Positions 343-23,965 of a stretch of DNA of 25,541 bases are shown in pieces. Location: the IMG/VR virus record IMGVR_UViG_3300032082_003074, positions 1 to 25,541 of that record. One strand, 5' to 3'. The notes beneath the pieces were generated by a model. The model did no database searches, was not told the origin of the DNA, and saw only the letters and a list, made by a program, of their open reading frames with translations. Numbering within the stretch: the stretch's first letter is position 1; every line of letters starts with the position of its first letter. This DNA is from a virus. Position numbers and translations under genes: made by a program.

Positions 343-1076
343 ACGATTGGTGTATCCTTATTTAAACCTGCTGAGAAGTGACGTATAATTACTGGCCCAG
401 TTTCAGGTTTTGTTATCGCCCAATTAAGTGCGTTATAATAGTTCCATCTCAAGTCGTCGTCAAAGATCCCGACTTTGAGATCCTTATATTTTTCTTCTTT
501 TTCAGTTAACCACCAGAGTGAGAACTGATCCCAAGACTTGAGACTGTCCGCGTACCCTTTAGGCCACCAAGTATCGTTCATTTGACGATACGTTAAGTCC
601 CACCAATCATCCATAAATTCACGTACGATTGGTTTCGTCATATCATATAAACACACTGCACCGCACAATGTAAACTTCGCCTTACCTTCTGGTGTGTCGA
701 AGTCTCGTTCTGCGTAGATGTAATCACGGTCATCTGTTAGAGCAGAGAAAACCATATCATGGTCTTTAATCTCATCCCAAACCTTTACGATGTCTTCGTG
801 CTCACATTCCATGTCAGCGTCAATGTACATGGTCAAGTCGTAAGGTGACTTCGCCATGCCCCATAACTTAGCGCGGTAGTGGTCATCACAGAAGATAACG
901 TCGTCTGCAACATCCCTACCTCTATCGTCAAGGAATCTTTCCTCAGTTACTAGACAGATCTTACATTCGTCTTCTGGTTCGTAGAAGTCACGAATCGACT
1001 CTGCCAAGTTAACCGCGTACAGATAGAAGTTATGCTTCTGTGACGCGACGATTACAAATCCTTTACTCTTTTCCAT
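339..1076 (-). CDS. Glycosyltransferase with DxD motif (GT8-like)
   Basis: In this 245-residue protein, GFVIVASQKHNFYLYAVNLA (6-25) is the N-terminal strand and helix of a nucleotide-sugar-binding domain. YDLTMYIDADMECEHEDI has the D86-A-D88 motif used by retaining GT-A enzymes of the GT8 type to bind metal and nucleotide sugar. CGAVCLYDMTKP and SWDQFSLWWL fit the later GT8 pattern (substrate helix and DQ segment). Near the C-terminus, IIRHFSAGLNKD has the His near the end that commonly contacts the diphosphate in this group. It is clearly different from the two family-2-like proteins in this window. It overlaps its upstream partner by 14 bases and the next gene by ATGA. Acceptor unknown; the Ser/Thr/Tyr-rich giant protein just upstream is an attractive candidate by inference. 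Confidence 0.75.
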   Translation of the reverse strand: MEKSKGFVIVASQKHNFYLYAVNLAESIRDFYEPEDECKICLVTEERFLDDRGRDVADDVIFCDDHYRAKLWGMAKSPYDLTMYIDADMECEHEDIVKVWDEIKDHDMVFSALTDDRDYIYAERDFDTPEGKAKFTLCGAVCLYDMTKPIVREFMDDWWDLTYRQMNDTWWPKGYADSLKSWDQFSLWWLTEKEEKYKDLKVGIFDDDLRWNYYNALNWAITKPETGPVIIRHFSAGLNKDTPIV

Positions 1077-1524
1077 TCTCTTCGGCCTCTAGCATTTCTT
1101 GAAGAATCATGATTGAGTACAAGTCTACCTCAATGCGTGACTTCGCACGACGTAGTTTTGCCTTCAACTTGCGGTTCTTAGAGTTCTTAATCTCTTCGAC
1201 CTCGAACGCCTCCAACTTGTAGTTGAAGAGTTTCTCAAGTTTACGCGCCTTCCTATGTTCTAGTTCGCGCTGTTTTTCTTCTTCTGCTTCGGCTGTTTTA
1301 CGAACGACACGGTCTTCCGTTTCCTTGTCAATCGTTTCTTCACCTAGTGACGCAACAACCTCATCAAATAATTCGTTGGGATTGCCATCACGATCTAATC
1401 TGTTTAACAACATTACCTGACGGGTAACACGACCAACATCGTCTTCCATTTCTAGGATACAGTTCAACTGTTCTTTTGCGTCTGTTTCCCAGAAGGCGTT
1501 ATCCATCCATCTTCTGTAACTCAT
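1063..1524 (-). CDS. Charged coiled-coil protein of unknown function
   Basis: I place the start at the ATG at 1524 (MSYRRWMDNAFWETDAKEQL), because GGAG lies 9 bases upstream; a longer frame would need a TTG at 1539 that overlaps that GGAG. The product is 153 residues. Residues 70-150 are Glu-, Lys- and Arg-rich and strongly helical (EEEKQRELEHRKARKLEKL), ending KLRRAKSRIEVDLYSIMILQ, and a coiled coil is likely. There is no membrane segment. It overlaps the following glycosyltransferase gene by 14 bases, so the two are probably translated together. I do not recognise the family. It may be a partner or scaffold for the glycosyltransferase or an assembly factor; this is inference from position only. 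Confidence 0.7.
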   Translation of the reverse strand: MSYRRWMDNAFWETDAKEQLNCILEMEDDVGRVTRQVMLLNRLDRDGNPNELFDEVVASLGEETIDKETEDRVVRKTAEAEEEKQRELEHRKARKLEKLFNYKLEAFEVEEIKNSKNRKLKAKLRRAKSRIEVDLYSIMILQEMLEAEENGKE

Positions 1525-1571
1525 TAAGTCATTCTCCAAAAAGGTTCAATCAATTCAAATGTATATAGTGG

Positions 1572-1638: not shown

Positions 1639-4600
1639 TTATGCAACCCTTACGTATAAAGTATATGTCTCAACCGTCGAGTAAGTTGGTTGAATAGTAG
1701 TACCAGTGTAGTTACCGATAAATGCACGTGAGTAATTACCAGTGAAGTCACGAGAATAGTTTCCAGTGAAGTCACGAGCGTAGTCACCAGTGTAGTTACC
1801 TGCGTAAGTTGATACACGAGTTCTGCCATAATCGAATGAGTAAGCAGAAGTACGTAGTCTTGAGTAAGCCGAGACACGTACACGTGAGAATGTATCAACA
1901 GAGTTACGAGTGTAATTACCGATGAAGTCACGCGAGTAGTTACCTACAAAGTTACCAGCGTATGCAGAGACACGGTTGCGGATGTAGTTACCTGCAAATG
2001 TGCGAGCATAGTTTCCAGTAAAGTTACCTACGAAGTCACGAGTGTAAGTACCTGCATATTCTCCTGCGAATGTACGCTGATAGTTTCCAACGAAGTCACC
2101 AGCAAACTCACGAGTGTACTGACCAGAGAAGTCACGAGTGTACTCACCCGCAAATGTGCGGTTGTAAGTTCCAGTGTATTCTCCAGCGAAGTTGCGAGAG
2201 TATGTTCCAGTGTACTGACCAGAGAAGCCGCGTGAGTAAGTACCAGTGTATTCCCCTGCAAATCCGCGTGAGTAAGTACCTGAGTAAGTCGAGATACGGT
2301 CACGTGAGTAAGACTCAACACGAGTTCTTACGAAGTTGCGAGAGTAATTACCGATGTAGTCACGAGAGTACGCACCAGTGTATTCGCCAACGAAGTCACG
2401 AGAGTAGTTACCCGCGTAAGTTGAGAAGCGAGTGCGGACATACGCTGATACACGGTTGCGAGTAAAGTTGCGAGAGTAGTTACCCGCAAAGTCGCGTGAG
2501 TATGCACCAGTGTACTGGCCAGAGAATCCACGTGAGTAAGTACCAGTGTAAGTAGATACACGGTTACGTGAGTAAGTAGAGATACGCTCACGAGTGAAGT
2601 TACGTGAGTAGTTGCCTACAAAGTTACGTGCGTAGATTCCAGTATATTGACCAGAGAAGTTACGGCTGTATGTTCCAGTGTAAGTTGAAACACGGTTACG
2701 TGAGTACGAAGAAGTACGAGTACGTGAGAAGTCACGACTGTAGTTTCCTACGAAATCACGTGCGTAGTAACCAGTGTACTCACCAGCAAAGTCACGAGAG
2801 TAAGTACCAGCGTATGTCGATGGACGTGTACGCGAGTAAGAAGAAACGCGAGTACGACTAAAGTCACGTGAGTAGTTACCAGTGAACGTGCGGTTGTAAG
2901 TACCAGTGTATTCACCTACAAAGTTACGTGAGTAAACGCCAACGTATGCAGATGGGCGAGTACGTGAGTAAGTTGAAACACGGTTACGAGTGAACGTAGT
3001 AGTGTAGTTACCAGTAAATGTACGGTTGTAAGTACCAGTGTACTCTCCAACGAATCCACGTGAGTAAGTGCCTGAGAACGTTGAAGTACGTGCACGAGAG
3101 TAAGCAGATACGCGAGTTCTAGTGTAGTTACGCGCATAGTTACCAGTGAACGTGCGGTTGTAGGTGCCAGTGTACTCACCAACGAATGTGCGAGAGTAGT
3201 TACCCGCATATGATGATGGACGTACACGTGAGTAAGCAGAAACGCGAGTGCGAGTAAATGCACGTGCGTAATTACCTACGAAGCCACGGTTATAAGTTCC
3301 AGTGTACTCACCGACGAAGTTACGGTTGTAAGTACCAGTGTACTGACCAGAGAAACCACGTGAGTAGTTGCCTACGTACTGTCCAGAGAATCCACGAGTA
3401 TAGTTACCAACGTAGTTTCCTGCGAAGTTACCTACGTAATCACCGATGAAGTTACCCGCATAGTTGCGTGAGTAGTTACCAGTGAACGTACGTGCGTAGT
3501 TTCCTGCAAAGTTACCAGCGAAGTTAGTCACACGGTCACGAGTGTATGCAGACGAACGGTTGAGAACGTATGCAGATACACGAGTACGTGCGTATGCGCT
3601 GTAACGAGTTCTAGTTGAAGTACGAGTGTATTCACCAACATAGTTACCAGTATATTCACCTGCGAATCCGCGAGCGTAGTTACCCACATAGTTTCCTGCA
3701 AAGTTGCGGCTGTAGTTACCTACGAAGTTACCTGCGAAGTTTGTGACGCGGTCACGAGTGAAGTCACCAACATAGTCAGTGATACGAGTTCTTGCGTACG
3801 CTGAGTAACGTGAACGTACAGAGTCACGAGTTGACGTACGAGTAAAGTTACCTACGTAATCAGTTACACGAGTACGAGCATATGCACTAACACGGTTACG
3901 AGTTGAATCACGCGTTGAAGTACGAGTGAAGTCACCGATGTAGTTAGTGATACGAGTACGTGCGTAAGCAGAGTTACGAGTACGTGAGTAAGATGACGCA
4001 CGAGTTCTTGAGAATGCGCCTGCGTAGTTAGTTACGCGAGTTCTTGCGTATGCAGAGTAACGAGTACGAGTTGATGTGCGAGTTGAAGTACGTGCGTAGT
4101 TACCTACGAAGTTACCAACATAATCACCAACGAATGTACGTCCGTAGTTGCCCACGAAGTTACCTACGTAATCACCGACGAATGTACGGCCATAGTTACC
4201 TACGAAGTCTCCCGCAAATCCACGTGCATAGTTACCTACGAAGTCGCCTGCGTAGTATCCAGTACGTGTATAGTATCCAGTACGTGTGTAGTCTGCAGCG
4301 TAGTTACGCGCATAGTTACCAATGAAGTTACCAACATAGTACAATGTACGAGTGTAGTAACCAGTGTTAGTAGAAACACGAGTACTGTTACGAGTGTAGT
4401 CTAGTGTTGCTGCACGGTTACGAGTATATGTACCAGTTGCAGTGTAGACGGTTGCACGAGTACGAGTGTAGTCTAGTGTTGCTGCACGGTTGCGAGAGTA
4501 TGCAACAGTAGAGACACGAGTACGTCCATAGTTCTGAGATACAGTACGTGCATAGTTACGGACAGAAGTACGAGTGTAGTATGCTACACCAGTGTAAGTT

Positions 4601-7600
4601 CCACCACCAACAGTTGACGTACGAGTCGATGTACGTGTTGAAGTACGAGTGTAGTAAGTTGTGCCACCGTAAGTAGTACGGGTATAGAAGTACAACTCAC
4701 CGTACAACCAACGTGAGTATTCTGCGAAACTAGTACCACCAGTACGTGCATAGTTACCAATGAAGTTACCAGTAAAGTTTCCTGCGTAGTCAGTACCAGC
4801 CGCAGTAGAACTTGTGTTACGAGCGTAATCACCGACGAAGTTTCCGCCTACGAAGTACTGCGGGAATGTACGGTTATAGTTACCGACGTAACTGACGTTA
4901 CGACTATAGTTACCAGTATACGTTACGCCACGAGTATAGTTACCTACGAAATCACCTGTATAGTACAATGTGCGAGTATAGTTACCCGTGTATGTTACGT
5001 TACGAGTGTAGTTACCAGTAAAGTCACCAGTGTAGTACAAAGTACGAGTGTAAGTACCAGTTGCAGTAAATGTCTGAGTACGGTCACGAGTAAACGCACG
5101 AGCGTAGTTACCAGTGTAGTACAGAGTACGAGTGTAACTTAGAGTACGAGTAGACGTACGAGTCGAAGTACGTGCATATGCGCTGTAGCGAGTACGTGTT
5201 GAAGTACGTGCGTATGCTGAACCACGGTTACGAGTATAGTTAGTAGCACGAGTACGAGTGTACGCCGAACCACGGTTACGAGTATAGTTGGTTGCACGAG
5301 TACGCGCATATTCACCAACGAAGTTACCCGCAAAGTCACCAGCGAATCCACGAGAATAGTTTCCTACGAAGTCACCAGCATAGTTTCTTGTGTAGTTACC
5401 GACGAAGTTGCGGCCATAGTTACCCACAAAGTTGCGAGCATAGTTACCAACAAAGTCTCCGGTAAAGGTAGTTGCATAGTTACCGACAAAGTTACCAGCG
5501 TAGTTACCGACGAAGGTACGTGCATAGTTACCTACAAAGTTACCAGTGAAGGTAGTAGTGTAGTTGCCTACGTAGTTACCAGCGTAGTTACCAGTGAATA
5601 GACGCGAGTAGTTACCCACGAAATCACCAGTAAAGGTAGTCGCATAGTTGCCAATAAAGTTACCAGCAAAGTTTGTGACGCGATCACGAGTGTATGCAGA
5701 ACCGCGAGTACGAGTAGAAGTACGCGCATAAGCTGAGTAACGAGTACGTGCAGAAACACGAGTCGATGTACGAGCGTAGTTACCAACATAGTTTCCTGCG
5801 AACGCACGTGAGTAGTTGCCCACGAAGTTGCGAGAATAGTTGCCTACGAAAGTACGAGCGTAGTTACCAATGAAGTTACCTGCAAAGTTTGTAACACGGT
5901 CACGGACATATGATGATACACGTGCGCGTGAGAAGATACCAGCAAAGTTGGTTACACGGTCACGAGTAAAGTTAGTTGCACGTACACGAGTGTAGTCAGC
6001 AGAGTATGCAGAAACACGAGTACGCGAATAAGTTCCCGCGTATGCCGATACACGGTTGCGTGAGTATGTTCCTGAGTATGCTGAAACACGAGTACGTGAG
6101 TAAGTACCTGAGTACGCGCTAGTGCGAGTACGAGTATAATTACGTGAGTAGTTTCCTACGAATCCACGGCTGTAGTTACCAGTGAAGTTACGTGAGTAAG
6201 TTCCCGCATAAGTTGAAACACGGTTGCGTGAATAAGTTCCAGTGTAAGAACTAACACGTCCACGAGTAAATGCGCGAGCATAGTTCCCTTGGAAGTTACG
6301 AGTGTAGTTTCCTACGAAATCACGTGCATAGGTACCACTGAACGTTGAGTTACGAGTACGTGAATAAGTTCCTGCGAAACTAGAAACACGGCCACGAGTA
6401 AAGTTACCAACGTAGTTACCAGCGAATCCACGGCTGTAGTTACCTACGTAGTTTCTTGAGTAGTAACCAGTGTACGCTGAGTTACGAGTTCTTGAGTAAG
6501 TACCAGTGAACGAAGAAACACGTCCGCGTGTGAATGAGTTAGTATATTCACCAACAAATGCACGGTTGTAGTTACCTACGAATGTGCGGCCATATGTACC
6601 AGTGTATGAAGATACACGAGTACGACCATACTCACCAGCGTAAGCAGAAGTACGCGTACGTGAGAATGCACCAGTATATTCACCGATGAAGTCACGTGAA
6701 TAGTTTCCTGCGAAACCGCGTGAGTAGTTGCCTACGTAAGTTGATACGCGAGTACGTGAATACGTTCCAGTGTATGAAGATACACGAGTACGTGCGAACT
6801 CACCAGTGTAGTTTCCTGCAAACCCACGAGTATACTCTCCAGCGAATCCGCGAGAGTAAGTTCCTGAGTAAGTAGAAATACGGTTACGTGAGTAAGTACC
6901 AGAATATGAACTTACACGAGTACGACCAAACTCACCAGTATAGTTACCTGCAAATCCGCGGCTGTAGTTTCCTACAAATGCGCGAGCATAGTAACCAGTG
7001 TACGATGAGTTACGAGTACGTGAGTAAGTACCTGAGAAAGATGATGTACGAGTACGCGAGAATTCACCTGCATAGTTACCTTGGAAAGAACGAGTATACT
7101 CTCCAGTAAATGCACGAGAATATGTACCAATGTATGCAGAGACGCGGTTACGTGCGTAAGTGCCAGTGTAAGTACTGATTCTGTTACGTGAGTAAGTTCC
7201 AGTATACGCTGAGTTACGGACACGGTTGTATGTACCAGTATAGGTAGATACACGGCCACGTGCATAGGTTGAGGTACGAGTGCGCGAGAAAGTTCCGGTG
7301 AAGTCTGTTACACGGTTACGAGTGAACGTTGACAAACGTGCACGAGAGTAGTAACCTGTAAATCCACCAGTAAATCCTTGTAGACGTACACGAGTGTAAG
7401 TAGACTGACGGTTTAAAATGTACTCGCCAGTAAACGTACGTGAGAAATTGGTGACACGGTCACGACTGTAAGTCGATGGACGTGTACGACTGTATTCACC
7501 GATAAAGTCCCCTACATAATTACCGGCAAAGTTACGACTGTAGTTACCAGCGAAATCGCGAGTGTAATTACCAACGTAATTACCTGCAAAGTCACGAGTA

Positions 7601-8487
7601 CTAGTTCGAGTAGAGACACGACTAAAGGTCGATGCGCGATCACGAGTATATGCTGATACGCGAGTACGTACGTATGAACTGTTACGAATACGCGAATAAG
7701 AAACTTCCGCAGTATTACGACGTGTGTTCAGTGCAGTACCAACTGCCTTCCATGTGCCTGGGGCCGTTGGTGCGCCTTGTGCAGATGAACGTAACTGGTA
7801 AGAACCAATTGCACCCGCAGTTGCACGTAGAGTTTTAATTCTTTGACCTAGAGTGTACTGAATCTGTGCGTCAGTCATCTCTTGGAAACCGTCGAAGTTT
7901 CCGCTACCGTCGTACTTAGTCGCGACCGGACGAACTGCATCGATTGCAGTCATGTTGGTGCGCAAGTAGATATTGTAGGTGGTTGATGAACCGTCGCCAC
8001 GAGTGTCTTGGAAGACATTCGGGATGAAGACAGTGTAATCAACGCCTGGGCTTGATGATGCTAGTTTGAATGTACCTACGTAATCATTTTGTGCAAGATT
8101 ACCTAGAACACGGTTAGCAAGTGAATTCAAATCCCCGTCTACCATTTCGTAGAAGCCAGGGTTTGTTGTATCGTAGTATCCTACTGGACGGACAAAGTCT
8201 GCACCGGATTCATCTGCTGGACCACCGTTTTGATAAACAGTAGTAGTAGTTGTACCGGAAGTGATTTGTGATGCTGGGTGAGTTCCCGTCGCTTCATTAA
8301 AGAAGGTATCGACGAATGTACCGATGCTCACATCACCTGTTAGACTAATGTGGCCGACATCACTTGAAGGTGCTGCGGCTAGTGCTTGTCCCACTGCATA
8401 CGCAAGATAGTTTTCTTCCGTAGGAGTGAATTCCTGTAGGTCACCATTCGAATTTTTGATTTTTAATGGGATGCTCGATGCTGACAC
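1639..8487 (-). CDS. Giant tetrapeptide-repeat virion protein (2282 residues)
   Basis: Residues 1-264 form an ordinary-looking N-terminal region resembling the head of marine phage fibre proteins (FTPTEENYLAYAVGQALAAA; VGTFKLASSSPGVDYTVFIP). Residues 265-2260 are 499 four-residue steps, mostly x-G-(N/E/T/D)-(Y/F), x-R-x-(F/R) and x-(S/T)-x-(Y/F). The last 22 residues are non-repetitive. The repeat part has no Lys, His, Cys or Met that I can find and very many Arg, Tyr, Gly, Ser and Thr. The start is GTG: no ATG lies between it and an in-frame stop at 8500-8502, and GAGAG precedes it. It has its own late promoter and terminator, so it is probably transcribed alone. Context (chaperone-like gene upstream, glycosyltransferase downstream) suggests a long fibre; the repeat fold is unknown to me, with a beta-solenoid or trimeric beta-spiral as guesses. 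Confidence 0.9.
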   Translation of the reverse strand: MSASSIPLKIKNSNGDLQEFTPTEENYLAYAVGQALAAAPSSDVGHISLTGDVSIGTFVDTFFNEATGTHPASQITSGTTTTTVYQNGGPADESGADFVRPVGYYDTTNPGFYEMVDGDLNSLANRVLGNLAQNDYVGTFKLASSSPGVDYTVFIPNVFQDTRGDGSSTTYNIYLRTNMTAIDAVRPVATKYDGSGNFDGFQEMTDAQIQYTLGQRIKTLRATAGAIGSYQLRSSAQGAPTAPGTWKAVGTALNTRRNTAEVSYSRIRNSSYVRTRVSAYTRDRASTFSRVSTRTSTRDFAGNYVGNYTRDFAGNYSRNFAGNYVGDFIGEYSRTRPSTYSRDRVTNFSRTFTGEYILNRQSTYTRVRLQGFTGGFTGYYSRARLSTFTRNRVTDFTGTFSRTRTSTYARGRVSTYTGTYNRVRNSAYTGTYSRNRISTYTGTYARNRVSAYIGTYSRAFTGEYTRSFQGNYAGEFSRTRTSSFSGTYSRTRNSSYTGYYARAFVGNYSRGFAGNYTGEFGRTRVSSYSGTYSRNRISTYSGTYSRGFAGEYTRGFAGNYTGEFARTRVSSYTGTYSRTRVSTYVGNYSRGFAGNYSRDFIGEYTGAFSRTRTSAYAGEYGRTRVSSYTGTYGRTFVGNYNRAFVGEYTNSFTRGRVSSFTGTYSRTRNSAYTGYYSRNYVGNYSRGFAGNYVGNFTRGRVSSFAGTYSRTRNSTFSGTYARDFVGNYTRNFQGNYARAFTRGRVSSYTGTYSRNRVSTYAGTYSRNFTGNYSRGFVGNYSRNYTRTRTSAYSGTYSRTRVSAYSGTYSRNRVSAYAGTYSRTRVSAYSADYTRVRATNFTRDRVTNFAGIFSRARVSSYVRDRVTNFAGNFIGNYARTFVGNYSRNFVGNYSRAFAGNYVGNYARTSTRVSARTRYSAYARTSTRTRGSAYTRDRVTNFAGNFIGNYATTFTGDFVGNYSRLFTGNYAGNYVGNYTTTFTGNFVGNYARTFVGNYAGNFVGNYATTFTGDFVGNYARNFVGNYGRNFVGNYTRNYAGDFVGNYSRGFAGDFAGNFVGEYARTRATNYTRNRGSAYTRTRATNYTRNRGSAYARTSTRTRYSAYARTSTRTSTRTLSYTRTLYYTGNYARAFTRDRTQTFTATGTYTRTLYYTGDFTGNYTRNVTYTGNYTRTLYYTGDFVGNYTRGVTYTGNYSRNVSYVGNYNRTFPQYFVGGNFVGDYARNTSSTAAGTDYAGNFTGNFIGNYARTGGTSFAEYSRWLYGELYFYTRTTYGGTTYYTRTSTRTSTRTSTVGGGTYTGVAYYTRTSVRNYARTVSQNYGRTRVSTVAYSRNRAATLDYTRTRATVYTATGTYTRNRAATLDYTRNSTRVSTNTGYYTRTLYYVGNFIGNYARNYAADYTRTGYYTRTGYYAGDFVGNYARGFAGDFVGNYGRTFVGDYVGNFVGNYGRTFVGDYVGNFVGNYARTSTRTSTRTRYSAYARTRVTNYAGAFSRTRASSYSRTRNSAYARTRITNYIGDFTRTSTRDSTRNRVSAYARTRVTDYVGNFTRTSTRDSVRSRYSAYARTRITDYVGDFTRDRVTNFAGNFVGNYSRNFAGNYVGNYARGFAGEYTGNYVGEYTRTSTRTRYSAYARTRVSAYVLNRSSAYTRDRVTNFAGNFAGNYARTFTGNYSRNYAGNFIGDYVGNFAGNYVGNYTRGFSGQYVGNYSRGFSGQYTGTYNRNFVGEYTGTYNRGFVGNYARAFTRTRVSAYSRVRPSSYAGNYSRTFVGEYTGTYNRTFTGNYARNYTRTRVSAYSRARTSTFSGTYSRGFVGEYTGTYNRTFTGNYTTTFTRNRVSTYSRTRPSAYVGVYSRNFVGEYTGTYNRTFTGNYSRDFSRTRVSSYSRTRPSTYAGTYSRDFAGEYTGYYARDFVGNYSRDFSRTRTSSYSRNRVSTYTGTYSRNFSGQYTGIYARNFVGNYSRNFTRERISTYSRNRVSTYTGTYSRGFSGQYTGAYSRDFAGNYSRNFTRNRVSAYVRTRFSTYAGNYSRDFVGEYTGAYSRDYIGNYSRNFVRTRVESYSRDRISTYSGTYSRGFAGEYTGTYSRGFSGQYTGTYSRNFAGEYTGTYNRTFAGEYTRDFSGQYTREFAGDFVGNYQRTFAGEYAGTYTRDFVGNFTGNYARTFAGNYIRNRVSAYAGNFVGNYSRDFIGNYTRNSVDTFSRVRVSAYSRLRTSAYSFDYGRTRVSTYAGNYTGDYARDFTGNYSRDFTGNYSRAFIGNYTGTTIQPTYSTVETYTLYVRVA
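2260..3315 (-). repeat. Array B: eight 44-residue (132-bp) super-units
   Basis: Eight consecutive units of 11 tetrads fill exactly 1056 bases, the same number and period as array A. Units start (V/A/S)G(E/Q)Y-TGxY, and Arg-final tetrads fall at tetrads 6 and 8 in every unit, two tetrads apart instead of three, so array B is not simply a copy of array A. Confidence 0.9.
4101..4200 (-). repeat. Short tandem duplication, 16 residues (48 bp)
   Basis: GRTFVGDYVGNFVGNY occurs twice in succession inside the giant protein. The DNA copies differ at several silent positions. Boundaries are approximate. Confidence 0.75.
6136..7191 (-). repeat. Array A: eight 44-residue (132-bp) super-units
   Basis: Eight consecutive units of 11 tetrads, with no indels, fill exactly 1056 bases. 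In each unit the Arg-final tetrads (such as SRNR, TRGR) are at tetrads 1 and 4, and tetrads 7-11 are mainly aromatic-final Gly or Arg tetrads such as SRGF and AGNY. Confidence 0.9.
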
Positions 8488-8603: not shown

Positions 8604-9071
8604 TTAGAGAGACGGATGTTCTGGCCAGACGACCTGAGACGGATGCATAATAACAGACATATCTAGTGTAGAAGGTAGGTCACGAAGTTCTTGACGGTAT
8701 GCAAGAATCTCATTTGTTTTCTCTTCAGAGAGTGGTGAGTCTGGTAACAATGCCCAATCTGTCTGTGCAATACGCATATTTCTTTCGGTGCGTATTTCAT
8801 TTAAGATGATCTCAGTATCCCACACCCATTCAGATCCATTCCAATCTGCATGAACGTTTGGTCTTTCTGGCACTTCTACAAACTGATACAACTCATTGTC
8901 CCAGACGCGAGTATTCATATACTCAGATACAGACAAACCTTCTAGGTCATAAATTCTATGGACAGTATGAACGATATCTAAACGTTCACCGTCTTCTGGG
9001 TATATACCAGAATCCATGTCAGTTCTTAGTATTACGCCATTATCATTTATCAAGGCGACTTTAGGGTGCAT
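8604..9071 (-). CDS. Tail fibre assembly protein (Phage_tail_APC-like)
   Basis: The C-terminal half of this 155-residue protein carries the pattern of phage tail assembly chaperones of the APC type: RNMRIAQTDWALLPDSPL at 97-114 and YRQELRDLPS at 125-134 (family form: R..LL..TDWT.LPD..L......YRQ.LRDLP). The N-terminal 85 residues (KVALINDNGVILRTD at 4-18, then a Trp-rich segment NGSEWVWD at 78-85) look like the domain that often precedes it in fibre-assembly proteins. Such proteins help fibres fold or attach and may or may not stay in the virion. It is the last gene of the run from gp8, followed by a terminator-like hairpin, and sits just before the 2282-residue repeat protein, a plausible client. 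GGAG lies 9 bases before the ATG. Confidence 0.8.
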   Translation of the reverse strand: MHPKVALINDNGVILRTDMDSGIYPEDGERLDIVHTVHRIYDLEGLSVSEYMNTRVWDNELYQFVEVPERPNVHADWNGSEWVWDTEIILNEIRTERNMRIAQTDWALLPDSPLSEEKTNEILAYRQELRDLPSTLDMSVIMHPSQVVWPEHPSL

Positions 9072-9086
9072 TTTATATTTCTCCGA

Positions 9087-9968
9087 TTATATGGTGGGTT
9101 CGTATAGACCTAGATTCGGATCTGGTCTACCAACGAACATTGGTTGTAGTGCATCTGGATAGGTATTGTTCTCAAACCCTTGTCCTGAACTATGTATTTC
9201 TTGGAAAGAATAAACGGCACCTTGACTAGGTGCAACAGTTCTTGCCAAACTAGTTGTGTAAATAATTGAGGCGAGTATCTCACTGTAAGGTGGACTACCG
9301 TATGCACCGCTTTGACGTGAGTATATTTTATTGGAAGTCGTTGTAGAACTGTCCCAAATAAGACCATATCGTCTAACATAAAAAGAGACGTTAGCAGAAT
9401 CAAGCACACCGGCATTATAGTAATCCAATCCGTTAGGGCCGTTCCATCCAGTTGTTAAGGTTCCGTTTATAACTTCACGGCTTGATACATATGTACCGTG
9501 ACTGAATGGATTGAAATAAACCTCGTTTGGATTAAGGGTGATTTCACCCTCACTTGACCTAAACATTCTTGTGTCGAATGTCACTGGACCAGTTAACGGA
9601 CCACCGTAAGATGATGCAATTGTGTCACGACATTGTAGACCATAATTTTCGCTGGGTGGAATATTAGCATTCGCAGCGTCTCTTAGTATAACATAGTTAA
9701 TAGGTTGACTGTAATTACTTGCCCAACCATAAGAGAAAACCCAATCAAGATCATCACCACTAATAGTTCTAGTACCAAGCAACAAGAAAGACCCGCCAGT
9801 ACTTGGACGATCAATATTAACTAATACAAGGTCGGATATTTTTGCGGACAAAGTTTGGCCTGGGAGAACACTACCTTTTGAGAACTGGAATGTTCCACGG
9901 CCTACCGTGCGACTATCAAATAAAATGTCACCACTTCGATTTTGTATTTCTAATCCATAATCTGCCAT
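9087..9968 (-). CDS. MADYGL-type virion protein, possible fibre tip or adhesin
   Basis: This 293-residue protein starts MADYGLEIQNRSGDILFDSR, sharing MADYGL and the G-x-(I/V)-x-FDSR step with the protein at 9978-10283. After this common module the two differ completely: this one continues with a Gly/Ser/Tyr-rich, probably all-beta region of about 260 residues. That layout (shared attachment module, variable body) suggests a receptor-binding or tip protein, by inference. It lies just upstream of a chaperone-like gene, a usual place for fibre tip genes in phages. AGGA is found upstream of the ATG, 9 bases after the previous stop. No known enzyme motif is seen. Confidence 0.7.
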   Translation of the reverse strand: MADYGLEIQNRSGDILFDSRTVGRGTFQFSKGSVLPGQTLSAKISDLVLVNIDRPSTGGSFLLLGTRTISGDDLDWVFSYGWASNYSQPINYVILRDAANANIPPSENYGLQCRDTIASSYGGPLTGPVTFDTRMFRSSEGEITLNPNEVYFNPFSHGTYVSSREVINGTLTTGWNGPNGLDYYNAGVLDSANVSFYVRRYGLIWDSSTTTSNKIYSRQSGAYGSPPYSEILASIIYTTSLARTVAPSQGAVYSFQEIHSSGQGFENNTYPDALQPMFVGRPDPNLGLYEPTI

Positions 9969-9977
9969 TATGATTTC

Positions 9978-10283
9978 CTATAGTCGTATACACGTATAAC
10001 CAAAGAGTGCACTACCTCCAGTTTGGTTATTAATTCTAAATGAAGTATATCCTGAAACTGAAGAGTCATATGTAATATTAGTTACCGTGTATGGATTGCC
10101 GCCACTTCCAGTAGGTCCGTTAACATAGACGTAAGAAAAACCTTCAGGTATAGTAATAGTTGAACTACTGCCACTTATAGTAACTGTTGCTGACGCAACC
10201 ACTTTGACATAAGATGGCATGTATCGGGAATCGAATGCAACGTATCCCGCAGGCGTCCAAACTTTTAATCCGTAATCTGCCAT
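9978..10283 (-). CDS. Small MADYGL-type virion protein
   Basis: This 101-residue protein starts MADYGLKVWTPAGYVAFDSR, a start shared with the next gene and of a kind I associate with small tail proteins of marine phages. The rest is rich in Ser, Thr, Gly, Tyr and Val with alternating hydrophobics, suggesting a small beta domain. A good GGAG lies 7 bases before the ATG, which abuts the preceding stop (TAAATG). It is probably a small appendage or tip protein; function not recognised. No Lys-rich or catalytic motif is present. Confidence 0.7.
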   Translation of the reverse strand: MADYGLKVWTPAGYVAFDSRYMPSYVKVVASATVTISGSSSTITIPEGFSYVYVNGPTGSGGNPYTVTNITYDSSVSGYTSFRINNQTGGSALFGYTCIRL

Positions 10284-11180
10284 TTAAAACTCCAATAAGG
10301 GTACACGTGTATCGTGCAGTTTATCTTGTCCCTTCAATTTTTCTAATTCCTCAAGGAGAATGGCCATCCATTCGATAAAACCCTTCCCCGCGTCTTTTTG
10401 ACTTTCTTTCAAAGCAATACCAGATATACGTACGTCGTACATATAAGTAGGATACTTTTCATCATGAGCAAACATTTTCAATTCACCTCGCTCATGCGCG
10501 TCTTTTAGTTCAAGGTATTGAAGAGTATCTTCACCTACCGTCAAACCTTTAAATCTGTAGGGTAAGACTTTCCGCGACATGAATACAAGTCGCGTACTTA
10601 ATTCGTCAATACCCATGCTGTGTTGTAAAGTTTTTATGTAACGTTTGAACATATCCACTTCACTCACAGTGATGTCCGGCACATTGTCTGCAACTAACCT
10701 ACCGTCTGCAAGTTTGTTCCAGTCTTCAACTACTGCCTGTTGTTCATACTTTCTAGTGAGATTGACAGGGTCTTCATGTGGCCTAACCGGATCTTGACTT
10801 CTATCTCTAAGACTATGATCCTGAGAGGTAAGATTGACTTGATTGAACAAGATCACCGCGTCGGGTGCGTCTTCACTCTCTGCCAGTTTCTGATATAACT
10901 TAACCCCTCTTGGAGTTAGGTAATCATCCCCGTCTATCAACACTGCATATGGTACACCATCAGCATCAAATATGTCAAGGAAAGAATTCTTTCCTGTTGC
11001 AGCGGTACCGTCGCTGTCTGTTACAAAATAACGAACTTCGTTTTCCTCACAGTAGGTTATCGCTTGTTGACGAAATTCTACGTGAGTTGTATTTATTATT
11101 ACTGTCGTCTTATCTATTGGTAGTGTTTTAAACTGTCGCTTTAGTGCATAAATGTTGTGGCTAGATAAAACATAAAACAT
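10284..11180 (-). CDS. Glycosyltransferase, family 2-like (second copy)
   Basis: This 298-residue protein carries a GT-A core: KTTVIINTT near 24-32, TGKNSFLDIFDADGVPYAVL (62-81) and IDGDDYLTP at 82-90, with D83, D85 and D86 as the likely metal-binding DxD. The GKN...DGDD(Y/F)L pattern matches the glycosyltransferase at 19168-20046, so the two are related, though the N-terminus here is shorter and lacks the usual WEVVIVVNS strand. No signal peptide or membrane segment is seen. It lies between two fibre-like genes: 3 bases after one and directly abutting the next (TAAATG). That placement suggests a virion protein as acceptor, by inference; candidates are the flanking fibre-like proteins. Only a weak AGGA precedes the ATG. 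Confidence 0.75.
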   Translation of the reverse strand: MFYVLSSHNIYALKRQFKTLPIDKTTVIINTTHVEFRQQAITYCEENEVRYFVTDSDGTAATGKNSFLDIFDADGVPYAVLIDGDDYLTPRGVKLYQKLAESEDAPDAVILFNQVNLTSQDHSLRDRSQDPVRPHEDPVNLTRKYEQQAVVEDWNKLADGRLVADNVPDITVSEVDMFKRYIKTLQHSMGIDELSTRLVFMSRKVLPYRFKGLTVGEDTLQYLELKDAHERGELKMFAHDEKYPTYMYDVRISGIALKESQKDAGKGFIEWMAILLEELEKLKGQDKLHDTRVPLLEF

Positions 11181-11183
11181 ATA

Positions 11184-12638
11184 TTATAACAATCCTAATC
11201 GAACTCTTCTTGCGCTACCCTCATAGATATCAATTCGTTCGTTGGTGATTTCCATGTGGTCTGTACCAGTTAGGTCAGTACCAATATCTATCTGTCCGGT
11301 AACTGTTGCGTTAGACAGTTCAACTCCATTAGCGGTAACGGTAAATGGATTCACACCACCTGTACCATCGGTCGCAGTTGGAGTGACAATTTTAAATGTG
11401 TCTGCAGCGACAACGAAGTCCGCAGTAGTTCCGTCATTGGTAAACTCCAATCCAGAAACATATGGATCTGTAGTAGTACCTGCGGTCAAGTTCAATTGCC
11501 ACTGTGCAGATACACCACCTGTTTGTGCGTCTACATATGCAGTCAGTGATTGTTCTGCTGCAGCGATGTCGCTGTCAATTTGTGCCTGAAGAGTTAGGTC
11601 ATATGCACTTATTGCAGATTGAATTAAACCGTTCTCTTCAACGATTTCAGTTCTTAGATCATCAATCGCACCAGTGATTGCAGTTGAAGTAACTTCACCT
11701 GTTTGTGGATCGCGAATGAATACCGCGTTGTCCAGTTCAGTGAGACTATTACTAATAGAGGTTATCTGTCCACCCTGAGTACTAACAGTAGAACTCAATA
11801 CTGATCTTGCGTCAGCCTCTGCATCGACACGTGCATTTAGGTCACTATCAACTGAGATAAGTGATGCAGACACACTGTCTAATGCCTGAGACAATACAGT
11901 AATACCGGAATCGTTTGTATCGATTCGAGTCTCTAGAGTTTGTAACGCACCACCAACAGCCTCGATAACGTCACTGTCTGAGATTGTGATACCACTGTCA
12001 ATCAACTGTTGTAGGTTGACATCAAGTTGAGTTACGTTGGCAGCAACGATACTTAGATCACTGTCTGTTGCGTCGATACGTGTGTATAGATTGCTTACCG
12101 CGTTTGCGTTCGCAGTGATACGAGTATTTGTAGATTGATCTAACAATATCAGTTCAGCGTTGACTGAATCTACTATTCCAGCAAGAACAGTGATCGCGCT
12201 GTCATTCGCCTCAATCTGAGAAGTCAGTGTAGTGTTTGCGTTAGCGATTGCAGAAGCAAGTAGGTCTGAGTCAATACCACCCAAGACCATACTGTCAAGT
12301 TGTGCTTGAGTTGCAATCTGTGCCTGAGCAAGTACAAGGACACCCGAATCAGTTGCATCGATACGCGAAGTCAACTGAAATATAGCGGACGCGTTCGCAG
12401 AGATATCTGAATCTAGATATGAGACATCAGTCTCGATAGTGAACTGCTGAAGATATTCCTCATTGATTACGGTCAAGAAGTAATCAGAGTCAAGGACATT
12501 GTTAATGATGTTAGTAATATCAGCCGAGTCAATAGTGATATTACCAACCGCAGAATCCAATCCCGCAAAGTTCTGGTTGATCTTTAGTATCGCTGCGTTG
12601 ATGTTATCCGCAAGATTTACTACCTGTATGTTACTCAT
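11184..12638 (-). CDS. Fibre-like tail protein with helical repeats and DUF1983-like C-terminus
   Basis: This 484-residue protein is probably a trimeric fibre or central tail-tip protein. Residues 20-24 are INQNF, as in two other proteins here. Residues 50-375 are alanine-, serine- and aspartate-rich with a repeated motif of the form (R/Q)I(D/E)(A/T)(T/N)DS at 92, 141, 187 and 238, spaced 46-51 residues, consistent with a long coiled-coil stalk. Residues 380-450 (WQLNLTAG, FVVAADTFKIVTP, PFTVTANGVELSNATVTG) resemble the DUF1983 domain at the end of lambda J-like tail proteins. The last 17 residues, RIDIYEGSARRVRLGLL, nearly match the C-terminus of the collagen-like fibre. GAGGG lies upstream of the ATG. 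The following glycosyltransferase gene starts after 3 bases. Confidence 0.8.
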   Translation of the reverse strand: MSNIQVVNLADNINAAILKINQNFAGLDSAVGNITIDSADITNIINNVLDSDYFLTVINEEYLQQFTIETDVSYLDSDISANASAIFQLTSRIDATDSGVLVLAQAQIATQAQLDSMVLGGIDSDLLASAIANANTTLTSQIEANDSAITVLAGIVDSVNAELILLDQSTNTRITANANAVSNLYTRIDATDSDLSIVAANVTQLDVNLQQLIDSGITISDSDVIEAVGGALQTLETRIDTNDSGITVLSQALDSVSASLISVDSDLNARVDAEADARSVLSSTVSTQGGQITSISNSLTELDNAVFIRDPQTGEVTSTAITGAIDDLRTEIVEENGLIQSAISAYDLTLQAQIDSDIAAAEQSLTAYVDAQTGGVSAQWQLNLTAGTTTDPYVSGLEFTNDGTTADFVVAADTFKIVTPTATDGTGGVNPFTVTANGVELSNATVTGQIDIGTDLTGTDHMEITNERIDIYEGSARRVRLGLL

Positions 12639-19167: not shown

Positions 19168-20046
19168 TCAAGAGTCTTTCAAGAAATTATTTAACCACAC
19201 TTCTTTCTGGTGATGGTTCATCAAAAGATCTTTGTAAATCACTGGAAGTTCGTAGGGGCTACTGCGCCATTCTTGTACATGAAGACGCGCTTCCTCTCGC
19301 ATTGGTTCTAGGTAATCATAGTAGTCATGCACTTTCTGTGCACTACCTTCGGTGGTCCTATCAATACAATACATGTCACTGGACATTGTCAGAAAATAAC
19401 AGAGATTACCTTTCTGGTGTTGTCCTAGTAGTTTGTACGTGTAGGCATGATCCTCACCATTACCGATGTCTTCGTTCATCTTAAACTGCGCAGACTTACG
19501 ACTCTGCAACATAATGAAGTCAATGGATACGGGACGTTCGTCGATGAAGAGGTGACTCTTCTGTGGTCCCATATTGGGATGAGGTGCAGCCATTGATGTA
19601 CCCCACACACTCGCGTGATACTCATCGTTGACCCACCAGTAATGACCTGACTCCAGTGCCCAGTTACAAATACAGTCACACGGTACCACACCCAAAACAT
19701 CAATGCATGGGAAGTGTTTGACGTGATTGTATAGAGACTGTAGATACGAGGGATACAGAAAGTCGTCACCGTCAATCTGTGAGACGAAGTCCGCATCACT
19801 CTCTAGGAATACCTCCAGACAAGCGTTCTTACCCTTGCCTGGCTTTCCGTTACTTTCTGTATTGACTACACGAAACGGTTGATCAAGTTCTAAGACCTGT
19901 TCATAGTACCCCTCACGAGTACTATTGACAACGATCACAACCTCCCACTCAACCGGAGTTATCTTAACGACTCCCTGAACAGATCGAATCAACCGCTCCA
20001 ACTTTGGGACATCGTTTGATGTCAACAGAGTTGTCATGAGTTTCAT
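19168..20046 (-). CDS. Glycosyltransferase, GT-A fold, family 2-like
   Basis: This 292-residue protein begins with a Rossmann-like strand (MKLMTTLLTSNDVPKLERLI), then WEVVIVVNS at 34-42, the usual second strand of family 2 glycosyltransferases. GKGKNACLEVF (70-80) precedes the metal and nucleotide-sugar motif QIDGDDF at 90-96, with D92, D94 and D95 as the likely DxD. A later GNGEDHAYTYKLL segment could supply the catalytic acidic residue (GED). No signal peptide or membrane segment is seen, so it acts in the cytoplasm. It is a relative of the protein at 10284-11180, sharing GKN...DGDD(Y/F)L. It is coupled to the oxygenase gene by TAATG with GAGG upstream. It probably transfers a sugar to a virion protein; the collagen-like fibre with Thr at Y positions is the nearest candidate, by inference. 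Donor sugar unknown. Confidence 0.8.
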   Translation of the reverse strand: MKLMTTLLTSNDVPKLERLIRSVQGVVKITPVEWEVVIVVNSTREGYYEQVLELDQPFRVVNTESNGKPGKGKNACLEVFLESDADFVSQIDGDDFLYPSYLQSLYNHVKHFPCIDVLGVVPCDCICNWALESGHYWWVNDEYHASVWGTSMAAPHPNMGPQKSHLFIDERPVSIDFIMLQSRKSAQFKMNEDIGNGEDHAYTYKLLGQHQKGNLCYFLTMSSDMYCIDRTTEGSAQKVHDYYDYLEPMREEARLHVQEWRSSPYELPVIYKDLLMNHHQKEVWLNNFLKDS

Positions 20047-20600
20047 TATTCTGCCTCGAAGAAAAACGTCTGGAATAATCGACTGTCTTGTGGAGTTGTC
20101 CCGAAGCCAGGGACTACGCTTCTATGATAATACATTGAGTCGTAAATTACAAGTCTATTGTATACGTTTTTCGCTTCTGCGACGATGTCCCAATCACTCT
20201 CATCGTGTTGGTAATCATTGAAGTCTATAAATTGATCTGAGGAATGTTTCATGATTCCGGTAGGTCTATGTCGATAAATCGCGGTACCAGAATCAAGTGG
20301 AGCATTCGGAGTTAGATACAACACCGCCGCATGAGACATTTCATCGTGGTGAATCCATGTCTCTGCGGTTTCGGTCGTATATTGAAAAGACGTGTTGTAT
20401 TTGTCAATAGGAAAGTACGTGATGCGTTTTCCTATGATGTTTTCAAAACTTCTCTTAAGTCCGTCGATGTAACCACCTGCATTGGTGCATGGTGCTGTAC
20501 GTAGGCCCGGATAGTTACCTGAAACATTAAATGGTAAGGATAATGCAAAATCCCGAACTGAATCGGGATCTGCATAAAAATCATCAATAATTGTGAACAT
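20046..20600 (-). CDS. 2-oxoglutarate/Fe(II)-dependent oxygenase-like protein (DUF6445-like)
   Basis: This 184-residue protein has the residue set of double-stranded beta-helix dioxygenases. Residues 82-87 are WIHHDE, giving the metal pair H84-x-D86. AAVLYLTP (91-98) and SGTAIYRHR (104-112) look like core strands. RLVIYDSMYYHRS gives distal H159, and R174 in DSRLFQTFF could bind the 2-oxoglutarate carboxylate. Such enzymes hydroxylate protein or small-molecule substrates using oxygen and 2-oxoglutarate. It resembles DUF6445-type proteins, whose substrates are, to my knowledge, mostly undefined. It lies 23 bases after the collagen-like gene and overlaps the following glycosyltransferase start by one base (TAATG). 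I infer that the collagen-like fibre is a candidate substrate, as in prolyl hydroxylation; other virion or host targets are equally possible from sequence alone. Start: ATG with AGGT upstream. Confidence 0.75.
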   Translation of the reverse strand: MFTIIDDFYADPDSVRDFALSLPFNVSGNYPGLRTAPCTNAGGYIDGLKRSFENIIGKRITYFPIDKYNTSFQYTTETAETWIHHDEMSHAAVLYLTPNAPLDSGTAIYRHRPTGIMKHSSDQFIDFNDYQHDESDWDIVAEAKNVYNRLVIYDSMYYHRSVVPGFGTTPQDSRLFQTFFFEAE

Positions 20601-20623: not shown

Positions 20624-23600
20624 TTACAACTCCCCAAGTCGTACTCTTCGAGCAGCACCTTCGTAAATATCAATACGTGTAGGTGAGAACTCAATACGAT
20701 CTCCGGTATCAGCAGTATTTAGAATACCACTAAGATCGATTATACCACCAGTAGTAGAACCTGTGGTACGTGTACCAGTAGTGATCTCTTCGAACACTGC
20801 ATCCGTTGTAGTGTCGATGCGATTCTGTGTAGAACGCCAGATACGTCCAGTGTTGATGTGCCACCAAATATCACCTTCGTAAATAGTGTCCACAGTACGG
20901 AACTGTCGAATAGCAGCAGATGCAGTCGAACTAATGTTTGATGGTAAGTTGGTCGATGTGTCGAACAATACCGCGTTACCGAATCCACCAACTGGACCCT
21001 GCGCACCCGTTGTACCAGCGACACCCGTCGCACCCTGTGGACCATCTGGGCCAGGTTGTCCTTGACCACCTTGAGGGCCCGGAGAACCTTGTGGCCCGTC
21101 TGGTCCGTCCGGACCTGTTTGTCCCTGAACACCCTGTGGTCCAGTATTACCTTGGGCACCTTGAGGACCGTTATTACCTGTCTGACCTTGGATACCTTGA
21201 GGACCAGTCGAACCCTGAGCACCTTGGGGACCATTGTTACCAGTCTGCCCTTGGATACCTTGTGGTCCAGTATTACCTTGGGCACCCTGCGGTCCATTGT
21301 TACCTGTTTGGCCTTGGATACCCTGTGGTCCAGTATTACCCTGAGCACCTTGAGGACCGTTGTTTCCGGTTTGTCCCTGAATACCCTGTGGTCCGGTATT
21401 ACCCTGAGCACCCTGTGGTCCATTGTTACCAGTCTGACCTTGGATACCTTGTGGTCCGGTAGAACCCTGAGCACCCTGTGGTCCGTTATTACCAGTCTGA
21501 CCTTGGATACCCTGAACACCTTGAGCACCTTGTGCGCCTTGAGGTCCGTTATTACCAGTTTGTCCCTGCAATCCCTGTGGACCAGTCGAACCCTGAGCAC
21601 CCTGCGGTCCATTGTTACCAGTTTGTCCCTGAATACCTTGAGGACCAGTAGAACCCTGCGCTCCTTGAGGACCATTGTTACCCGTTTGACCCTGCAATCC
21701 CTGTGGACCAGTTGAACCTTGTGCCCCTTGTGGGCCATTGTTACCAGTCTGTCCCTGCAATCCTTGTGGTCCGGTAGAACCCTGAGCACCTTGAGGACCA
21801 TTGTTACCCGTTTGACCTTGGATACCTTGGGCACCAGTCGAACCTTGCGCTCCTTGTGGTCCATTGTTACCCGTTTGTCCCTGAATACCTTGAGCACCAG
21901 TTACGCCCTGCGCTCCTTGTGGTCCATTGTTACCAGTCTGACCTTGGATACCTTGAGGACCAGTAGAACCCTGCGCTCCTTGAGGACCGTTGTTTCCGGT
22001 CTGTCCCTGCAATCCTTGTGGACCAGTTGAACCTTGGGCACCTTGAGGACCGTTGTTTCCCGTCTGACCTTGTAGACCCTGAGCACCTTGTGCACCTTGT
22101 GCACCAGTAGGGCCAGGAGTACCTGTAGTACCTTGGATACCCTGAACACCTTGTGGTCCCTGCGGTCCTTCTGGTCCGTCTGGACCTTGTGGGCCAGGTT
22201 CACCTGTATTACCTTGCGGTCCCTGCGGGCCAGGAGTTGTACCCGCTGGACCTTGTGGGCCAGGTTCACCCGTATTTCCTGTTGGACCCTGTGGGCCAGG
22301 TGTCGTTCCTGCTGGACCTTGTGGGCCAGGTTCACCTGTTGCACCACTTGGACCTTCTGGTCCGGTCTGACCTTGAATACCTTGGGCACCAGTTACACCC
22401 TGAGCACCAGTAGGGCCAGGTTGTCCTTGTAGACCCTGCACACCAGTTGCACCCGTAGCACCTTGTGGACCAGCAGGGCCAGGGTTACCTTGAAAACCTT
22501 GAGCACCATCTGGTCCAATTGGTCCTTGTGGTCCTTCAGGGCCAGGATCTCCTTGCAACCCTTGGATACCCGTTGTACCTTGTGGACCCTGCGGTCCTTC
22601 TGGGCCTGGGTCTCCAGTAAGACCTTGTGCGCCTGTAGTTCCTTGTGGACCCTGCGGTCCTTCTGGGCCTGGGTCTCCAGTAAGACCTTGTGCGCCTGTA
22701 GTTCCTTGTGCACCTTGTGGTCCTTCTGGGCCTGGGTCTCCCTGCAACCCCTGAATACCTTGTGGTCCAGTAGCACCTTGTGGTCCTTCAGGGCCAGGAT
22801 CTCCCTGCAATCCTTGGATACCTTGTGGTCCAGTAGCACCCTGCGGTCCTTCTGGGCCTGGGTCTCCCTGAAGTCCAGTAATACCCTGTGGTCCAGTAGC
22901 ACCCTGCGGTCCCTCTGGGCCTGGGTCTCCCTGAAGTCCAGTAATACCTTGAGCACCCTGAGAACCTTGTGGTCCTTCAGGGCCTGGGTTACCTTGCAAT
23001 CCTTGAATCCCCTGCGAACCTTGTGCACCTTGCGCACCAACTGGGCCAGGGTTACCCTGCAATCCTTGGATACCTTGAGCACCCTGAGAACCTTGCGGTC
23101 CTTCTGGGCCTGGATTACCCTGAAGACCCTGAATACCTTGCGAACCTTGTGCTCCCTGTGGTCCCTCTGGGCCAGGATTTCCTTGAAGTCCAGTAATACC
23201 CTGAGCGCCTTGTACACCTTGAGGACCAACTGGGCCTGGGTTCCCTTGAAGACCAGGAATACCCTGAGCACCTTGGGTACCTTGAGGTCCAGTCTCGCCA
23301 GGGTTACCTTGAAGACCCTGAATACCTTGGGCACCTTGGGCACCCTGTGCACCGACTGGGCCTGGGTTACCTTGAAGACCCTGAATACCCTGAGCACCTT
23401 GGGTACCTTGAGGACCAACTGGACCACCTCCACCTTGTGGACCGACTGGACCGATAATACCTTGAGGACCAACTCCACCGTCTGGACCCTGTGGACCAAG
23501 ATTACCTTGACCACCAACCGGACCTTGTGAGCCAACAGAACCCTGTGGTCCCAAAGGGCCCTGAGCACCCTGAGAACCCGTCACACCTTGTGGGCCTGGA

Positions 23601-23965
23601 GCACCCTGAGGGCCAACACCACCAATATCCGTATTCTCAATCAGAGTATTGATGTTTTGTACTTCGGTACTTAAAGTTGATGTTGTGGTGTTTAGATTAG
23701 TGATTAATGTATCGTGTGTATCAACACGTGCGTCTAGTACATTAATATCGTTTTGGTCGGATAGATTTGCAGCATTGACTGCTTCGGTGACTGCTTGGTC
23801 AACGTAGTTAGATAGAAATTCAGCAGTAATGCCACCTTCACCTGCAATGTCAAGAAGGGCGTAGATTTCTGCGAAGTTGGCATTGATTTTTTCACTGGCT
23901 TGACGGAGCGTATCACCTGTACCGTCGTTTACTGCACCACCAGTGTTAAGAGTCTGTCGAGTCAT
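20624..23965 (-). CDS. Collagen-like tail fibre protein
   Basis: This 1113-residue protein is a predicted trimeric fibre. Residues 1-114 start [20 protein letters not shown] and hold INANF at 27-31, a start typical of T4-like marine phage fibre proteins, followed by a probable coiled coil. Residues 115-995 are collagen-like: 881 residues, equal to 293 Gly-X-Y triplets plus two extra residues, each in a GTTP step. The collagen part has no Lys, Arg, Cys or His that I can see; Pro is mostly at X, with Gln, Thr, Asn, Ala or Pro at Y. Residues 996-1113 form a compact C-terminal domain ending [17 protein letters not shown], shared with the fibre-like protein at 11184-12638. It has its own late promoter octamer. 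An oxygenase and a glycosyltransferase gene follow directly. The Shine-Dalgarno is weak (GAGAAAG). It could instead be a baseplate-attached side fibre or head decoration, but gene order favours the baseplate. Confidence 0.9.
21121..22108 (-). repeat. Collagen array 2: 21-residue (63-bp) units with GQTGNN
   Basis: Fifteen copies of GQTGNN occur at intervals of 21 residues, so the unit is again seven triplets, of the type [15 protein letters not shown] followed by GQTGNN. Variation is limited to S/N/V at one site, P/A at another and I/L/V at a third. Y-position proline is absent; Gln, Thr and Asn take that position. The 63-bp units differ at many silent sites, so the array is not a very recent perfect duplication. 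Boundaries are approximate. Confidence 0.85.
22480..23410 (-). repeat. Collagen array 1: 21-residue (63-bp) units with GNP/GDP
   Basis: Within the N-terminal part of the collagen region, units of seven Gly-X-Y triplets repeat. Each unit begins GNPGP or GDPGP and ends in GxQGLQ or a variant. Early units use GNP, later ones GDP followed by [13 protein letters not shown]. This part carries most of the proline at the Y position, the position used by collagen prolyl 4-hydroxylases. Boundaries are approximate. Confidence 0.8.

Follow-up and report, generated by a model that had tools for sequence, protein, structure and literature searches.

A tetrad-repeat gene in a tail and baseplate cluster

The window, by which we mean the whole stretch of DNA analysed here (25,541 nucleotides, IMG/VR virus record IMGVR_UViG_3300032082_003074), carries a tetrad-repeat fibre gene whose product we divide into a base domain, two arms, a central tip loop and a short C-terminal strand (Table 1). 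Upstream of the fibre gene lies a gene for a Tfa-type tail-fibre assembly chaperone, an arrangement found in 67 of 84 loci, with the two genes directly adjacent in the window. On the other side, a 158-residue partner without a Pfam match follows directly; it was detected at 60 loci and holds this position in every one. Also conserved are baseplate proteins of the DUF4815 and gp8 types further upstream and a 245-residue protein downstream. Other genes of the window match a baseplate wedge protein, a T4 gp9/10 N-terminus with collagen repeats and a tail-tip domain; relatives of the gp8 protein come from T4-like cyanophages and pelagiphages, the closest being that of phage C48C1 (62%).

Table 1. 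Features of the fibre gene and its immediate neighbours in the window
Feature	Coordinates	Strand	Remarks
Conserved downstream partner	1063..1539	(-)	158 aa
Tetrad-repeat fibre ORF	1639-8487	(-)	2282 aa, GTG start
C-terminal strand, residues 2267-2282 (PTYSTVETYTLYVRVA)	1642..1689	(-)	conserved in relatives
C-arm (return strand), residues 1322-2266	1690..4524	(-)	mirror-complementary to N-arm
Central tip loop, residues 1205-1321 (117 aa)	4525..4875	(-)	degenerate tetrads; unpaired in hairpin alignment
N-arm (outward strand), residues 260-1204	4876..7710	(-)	~236 tetrads; gap-free pairing with C-arm
Base domain, residues 1-259	7711..8487	(-)	conserved in ~110 relatives
Tfa/Phage_tail_APC-type tail-fibre assembly chaperone	8604..9071	(-)	PF16778, E=3e-18; phrog_4912, tail fiber assembly, E=1.4e-19

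Elsewhere in the cluster, the collagen-like fibre with the T4 gp9/10-type N-terminus (20624-23965, minus strand) and the 484-residue tail-tip protein (11184-12638, minus strand) end in a nearly identical C-terminus, RIDIYEGxARRVRLGxL, a sequence likeness that suggests a common assembly or attachment tail. Four further ORFs inside the tail cluster (339-1076, 10284-11180, 19168-20046 and 20046-20600) comprise a glycosyltransferase family 2 protein, a DUF6445 protein and two more that look glycosyltransferase-like by eye; the glycosyltransferase-type and DUF6445 proteins may possibly modify fibre glycans.

Within residues 265-2260 of the fibre protein, 270 of 402 aromatic residues show lag-4 coincidence, compared with a maximum of 103 in 1,000 shuffles, which confirms the four-residue Tyr/Phe/Arg rhythm described in the original prediction. 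The in-phase fourth positions (n=499) hold Tyr 225 times, Phe 132 times and Arg 90 times. The phase is lost over residues ~1100-1390, where residues 1205-1321 form a distinct central loop. Because many relatives have different phases in the N-arm and the C-arm, the fit of the whole array to 12-bp steps is accidental in the window member: its 5,988 bases do divide exactly into such steps, as had been observed, but this does not hold as a general rule, and the regular unit is each arm rather than the whole array. Arm composition is extreme, with no Lys, no Trp, 10 His and 1 Cys among 44,680 residues from 42 relatives; Arg is the sole basic residue of these arms, which are strongly positive.

Searches with the whole protein returned no Pfam family, nothing below 0.04 among PHROGs and no PDB sequence at E<=10, and curated profiles and solved structures of collagen, pentapeptide, hexapeptide and β-spiral repeats gave no sequence match to it. 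The suggestion that the array belongs to no recognised repeat family is supported by these results, as Pfam, PHROGs and PDB sequences gave no significant match. The literature searched, which takes in a minority of subscription journals, contained no account of a fibre of this kind.

Relatives are encoded on ~110 marine phage contigs. A search with the N-terminal domain yielded 37 IMG/VR loci, and one with an alignment of that domain yielded 110, of which 80 were kept. The complete proteins recovered through the base domain are 794 to 3347 residues long, and despite this range the N-terminal ~260 and C-terminal ~20 residues (…ETYTLYVRVA) are conserved. A DNA pattern for GNYxRxFxGNY led to more divergent members of 402-2121 residues with a similar base domain and C-terminus. 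Among annotated phages, tblastn found one homologue, a 3347-residue hypothetical protein of phage C48C1 (Kyanoviridae; WJE88074.1, OQ984149), and no convincing relative beyond it; the bacterial and archaeal genome contigs searched contained none. The C48C1 protein is a true homologue, with a base domain 71% identical to that of the window protein and the same hairpin code over 1025 pairs; it differs from the window protein by five inserted regions in its C-arm. A stretch of ~75 residues in this protein (L001 15001-25044), at about 2007-2080, is directly repeated after itself. Several phages carry two different hairpin-fibre genes on one contig (L199, L201, L094, L153, L163 and L182). The tetrad proteins of L114 and L169 have a different N-terminus (MSYGL/MPYGL) that resembles small proteins encoded at 9978-10283 and 9087-9968 of the window; we sought a hairpin register in these two proteins and found none that was clear.

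Two arms in a single mirror register

A non-tetrad stretch sits at the midpoint of the array in nearly every member, regardless of total length, and the arms on its two sides are similar in size (N/C residues 927/876 in the window protein by a crude cut, 587/585 in L024 and 416/420 in L046). We paired each N-arm residue i with the C-arm residue j for which i+j is constant. In the window protein, a single base-anchored register yields an unbroken, gap-free series of 945 pairs (260-1204 with 2266-1322), among which Arg never faces Arg, with ~135 Arg in each arm and 34±4 such pairs expected (minimum 18) from 20,000 tetrad shuffles of one arm. The pair score is 851, against -36±56 for the null (z 15.7) and 223 for the best rotation of the arms. 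Parallel pairing was rejected, its best score falling below zero. Of 42 non-redundant relatives, 41 have no Arg-Arg pair at all; the family total is 12 in 22,190 pairs, where 696 were expected, and all 12 occur in L010. That protein, the sole rule-breaker, lacks 24 residues in one arm relative to its nearly identical sibling L008, possibly through an assembly collapse or as a natural mismatched variant.

The neighbouring register S-2, two positions from the mirror register S, has almost no Arg-Arg pairs either (37 versus 828 expected), and registers S+2 and S±4 lie above expectation, so the avoidance stops at S and S-2. Both residue faces show coupling, which is strongest at these same two registers. 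Near the tip the register is less certain, and in the part of the window protein built of a 44-residue super-repeat (residues ~407-742) neighbouring registers score equally well locally. For divergent relatives, an unconstrained scan recovered the base-anchored register in most, with zero Arg-Arg over 604 pairs in L146, 420 in L150 and 394 in L163, and returned no clear register in a few distant members (L116, L158, the second copy of L182, and L169). The one continuous 499-step repeat originally proposed is wrong in this respect: the protein contains two equal arms of ~236 tetrads each, antiparallel around a central tip. We consider it very probable indeed that the N-arm and the C-arm pair as a hairpin.

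Mutual information reaches 0.92 bit per tetrad pair in the pooled family and 0.99 in the window protein, where other registers have a median of 0.17. Tetrads of the form xRxR stand opposite xGx[YF] in 568 of 574 pairs, xRx[ST] stands opposite xGx[YF] in 126 of 137, and x[ST]xY is found opposite xRx[FY] or xGx[YF]. These preferences read as a strict complementarity code, in which Arg is never opposite Arg, Arg at position 4 is opposite Gly and Arg at position 2 is opposite an aromatic residue.

Arm lengths stay equal because insertions and deletions come as matched pairs at equal height. Compared with L046, both arms of the L047 protein have 288, 48 and 116 additional residues, located at heights 77/87, 465/471 and 573/577; L048 and L053 differ by 60 residues in one arm and 60 in the other. 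The matching segments may be divided differently, as in L007 versus L016 (120+56 residues in one arm, 176 in the other) and L016 versus L015 (176 in one, 156+20 in the other). By analogy, such matched indels are the protein counterpart of a compensatory change in an RNA stem. The simple correlation of arm lengths, calculated with C48C1 left out, is as low as r=0.54 because an inserted domain lengthens the C-arm of L079, L081, L086 and L087. Where one arm is interrupted in this way, the register resumes right after the inserted globular domain, and following the register through the insert resolved the arm mismatch in L087, L079 and C48C1.

In a blind test, arms were aligned with gaps allowed, using a pair matrix learned from 14 other members. 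For C48C1 the alignment skipped five insertions (127, 174, 158, 153 and ~315 residues), all in the C-arm and coinciding with its non-tetrad domains, introduced no gaps in the N-arm, gave zero Arg-Arg over 1025 pairs and left a 93-residue tip; for L087 it skipped exactly one 221-residue domain. An inserted domain of ~220 residues (SNLLWQ...WEPRVDD) recurs in the C-arms of L079, L081, L086, L087 and L001. It has no Pfam match and, by eye, looks like a carbohydrate-binding β-sandwich.

At the level of sequence, then, equal arms, a single mirror register over their full length, a strict residue complementarity, compensated indels and a hypervariable midpoint are established, and it is against these that other origins of the pattern can be weighed. 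A one-way fibre or β-solenoid, advancing some 499 steps from N- to C-terminus with the C-terminus distal, would suit a tetrad rhythm that is uniform across most of the chain. It predicts, however, that mirrored positions are unrelated, that indels are unpaired and that the C-terminus is the variable part, whereas we find zero Arg-Arg at one mirror register, matched indels, and a conserved C-terminus with a variable midpoint; we rejected this arrangement on the mirror register and regard it as highly improbable. The symmetry could instead be genetic, an inverted duplication of DNA or gene conversion having made one arm the reversed image of the other, and repetitive genes do often change by duplication. 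Yet long inverted repeats sought between the arms are absent, and an inverted DNA repeat, which would be unable to produce the matched indels, was rejected as the cause. The arms are moreover related by complementarity (Arg opposite Gly or an aromatic residue) and not by identity, reversal of the coding strand would destroy the tetrads, and matched indels kilobases apart require selection, all of which makes a genetic mirror extremely improbable.

Tip, base and proposed architecture

Closely related pairs of proteins differ most at the midpoint. Identity between L058 and L062 is 0.99 in the base, 0.92-1.00 in the arms and 0.46 in the tip, and between L024 and L031 it is 0.98, 0.94-0.97 and 0.58, respectively. 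The ratio of differences at second positions (nonsynonymous) to those at fourfold sites is 0.15-0.38 in arms and 0.58-1.09 in tips; the midpoint region is under relaxed or diversifying selection. AlphaFold modelled one tip class, that of L072 with flanking arms, as a small β domain (pLDDT 77-91) between arms that were not confident; a Foldseek search with this model, which includes long low-confidence stretches, gave no significant match (best E 0.39). From its rapid change, the mid-chain tip probably recognises the bacterial host.

The base domain matches neither Pfam (E<=5) nor PHROGs. An AlphaFold2 monomer model of a full-length relative (L076, 834 residues) has pLDDT 84-97 over most of the base domain and 75-96 over the last ~20 residues, with arms below 50. 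It contains long strands at 244-285 and 789-832, and its last ~20 residues pack with the N-terminal domain; the confidence shared by these two parts is consistent with the chain end coming back to the base. Residues 2267-2282 of the window protein would then complete the base domain. Foldseek searches with the base-domain model, again including long low-confidence stretches, gave no significant match, with a best E of 0.58 against the PDB and 7e-3 (probability 0.57) against BFVD.

Taken together, we think it very likely that the protein is a tail or side fibre whose chain folds out and back in a hairpin, with a variable tip at mid-sequence. From an N-terminal base domain, the chain would run ~945 residues outward as a β-strand of four-residue steps, turn at the variable tip, return over 945 residues in antiparallel register and end in a short strand, the last element of the base. 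Three chains would form a six-stranded needle, the arms being β-strands in contact within the fibre; this trimeric arrangement is the one we cautiously favour. The base would attach to the tail, the tip would bind a receptor and the upstream Tfa-like protein would assist folding. At 3.3 Å per residue, 945 residues extend 312 nm, and the tilt of a six-stranded barrel with shear 6 (computed from registers S and S-2) shortens this to about 250 nm, so that we estimate a fibre of ~250-310 nm. With two arms antiparallel around the tip, the fibre would have about half the length of a continuous filament. The tail or side fibre originally envisaged is supported by the tail and baseplate neighbours and the Tfa-type chaperone directly upstream; the observation had been right and the fibre reading right in outline, and the hairpin organisation had been missed.

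Which chains pair within this fibre, and how many there are, admits another arrangement. Established phage side fibres are mostly trimeric and Tfa-type chaperones are typical of trimeric fibres, so the adjacent chaperone gene speaks for a trimeric needle, though neither point is decisive. The sequence coupling would be the same for pairing within a chain and between chains, and copy number is not readable from it either; coupling at both S and S-2 fits the facing and diagonal neighbours of a ribbon as well as two flanking C-strands of a closed six-strand barrel. The chains of T4 gp37 intertwine at the tip (PMC9659904). Antiparallel pairing of arms between chains that are intertwined or domain-swapped, or a dimer or ribbon of two strands in place of the trimeric needle, is therefore a possibility that we rate below the trimer. 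A different role, in which the protein takes no part in host recognition and forms another virion filament (a whisker or head fibre) or is secreted as an adhesive filament, is a further alternative. We consider it improbable, since tail and baseplate genes surround the gene, a tail-fibre chaperone is encoded next door and the tip changes in the manner of a receptor-binding site. That the hairpin protein is a tail fibre with a receptor-binding tip is, in our judgement, quite likely.

Comparison with known fibres and hairpins

Fibres built on β-spirals, triple β-helices, pentapeptides or hexapeptides also use short repeats, and their chains run one way; they differ from the hairpin fibre in having no mirror pairing and another period, and no Pfam or PDB sequence match links them to it. 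The SMC and Rad50 proteins form antiparallel hairpin coiled coils with long equal arms and their termini together. Like the hairpin fibre, they place a functional tip at mid-sequence and have arm lengths that are constrained together, but they are α-helical coiled coils and not tetrad β-structures, and their function is unrelated. Among phage proteins, lambda Stf resembles gp37, from which an out-and-back needle has been inferred for it (PMC7291167). Side fibres of this collar-needle type share with the present family a Tfa chaperone and the needle proposed here; the base domain here, however, has no match to the Pfam Collar domain at E<=5, and long arms are absent in Stf-type fibres.

The closest known architecture is that of the receptor-binding tip of T4 gp37, where six antiparallel strands form a needle and a head domain occupies the turn (PDB 2XGF; Bartual et al. 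2010, as described in PMC9659904 and PMC7291167; we checked the tip sequence against PDB 2XGF). By analogy the family would work like gp37, and membership of its family is unsupported by sequence: hhalign against the gp37 tip gave E=0.48 (probability 0.1%), BLASTP gave E=0.95, and neither the base nor the whole protein showed similarity. In both, on the hairpin reading, the chain runs out to a head and back with the receptor-binding part at the turn; here, antiparallel arms with a tip at the turn are indicated by the mirror register, the indels and the variable midpoint. The α/β collar at the base of gp37 would have its counterpart in the base domain here, which is unrelated to it in sequence. 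Both systems have a dedicated assembly protein encoded by an adjoining gene, gp38 in T4 and the PF16778/phrog_4912 protein at 8604-9071 in the window, and the gp37 C-terminus FNYIVRLA loosely resembles YTLYVRVA of the hairpin fibre. The T4 tip is far shorter, comprising the last ~215 residues with a needle of about 15 nm, compared with 945 residues per arm, and it uses His-x-His and iron, whereas hairpin-fibre arms have 10 His in 44,680 residues and those of the window protein none. We know of no comparable pairing code for gp37. The halves of the T4 long tail fibre measure about 70 + 74 nm (PMC3004832), a length that our estimate of ~250-310 nm would exceed.

We think it probable that these proteins represent a new class of fibre, in which strands of ~1000 residues recognise each other by a base-pair-like code around a swappable tip in mid-chain. 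Such a code would allow Arg:Gly, Arg:aromatic and Ser:aromatic and forbid Arg:Arg, and would make the register, paired insertions and looped-out side domains readable from sequence, as in an RNA stem. If so, fibre length, tip position and side domains could be read directly from the sequences of a widespread, unannotated marine phage family, and the likely host-recognition site of these uncultured phages would lie mid-gene, a place that annotation would pass over. Rules of β-sheet pairing could be studied, and structure predictors tested, on the natural data set that the family would provide: strict residue complementarity over ~1000 positions of one protein, with the compensatory indels of RNA stems.
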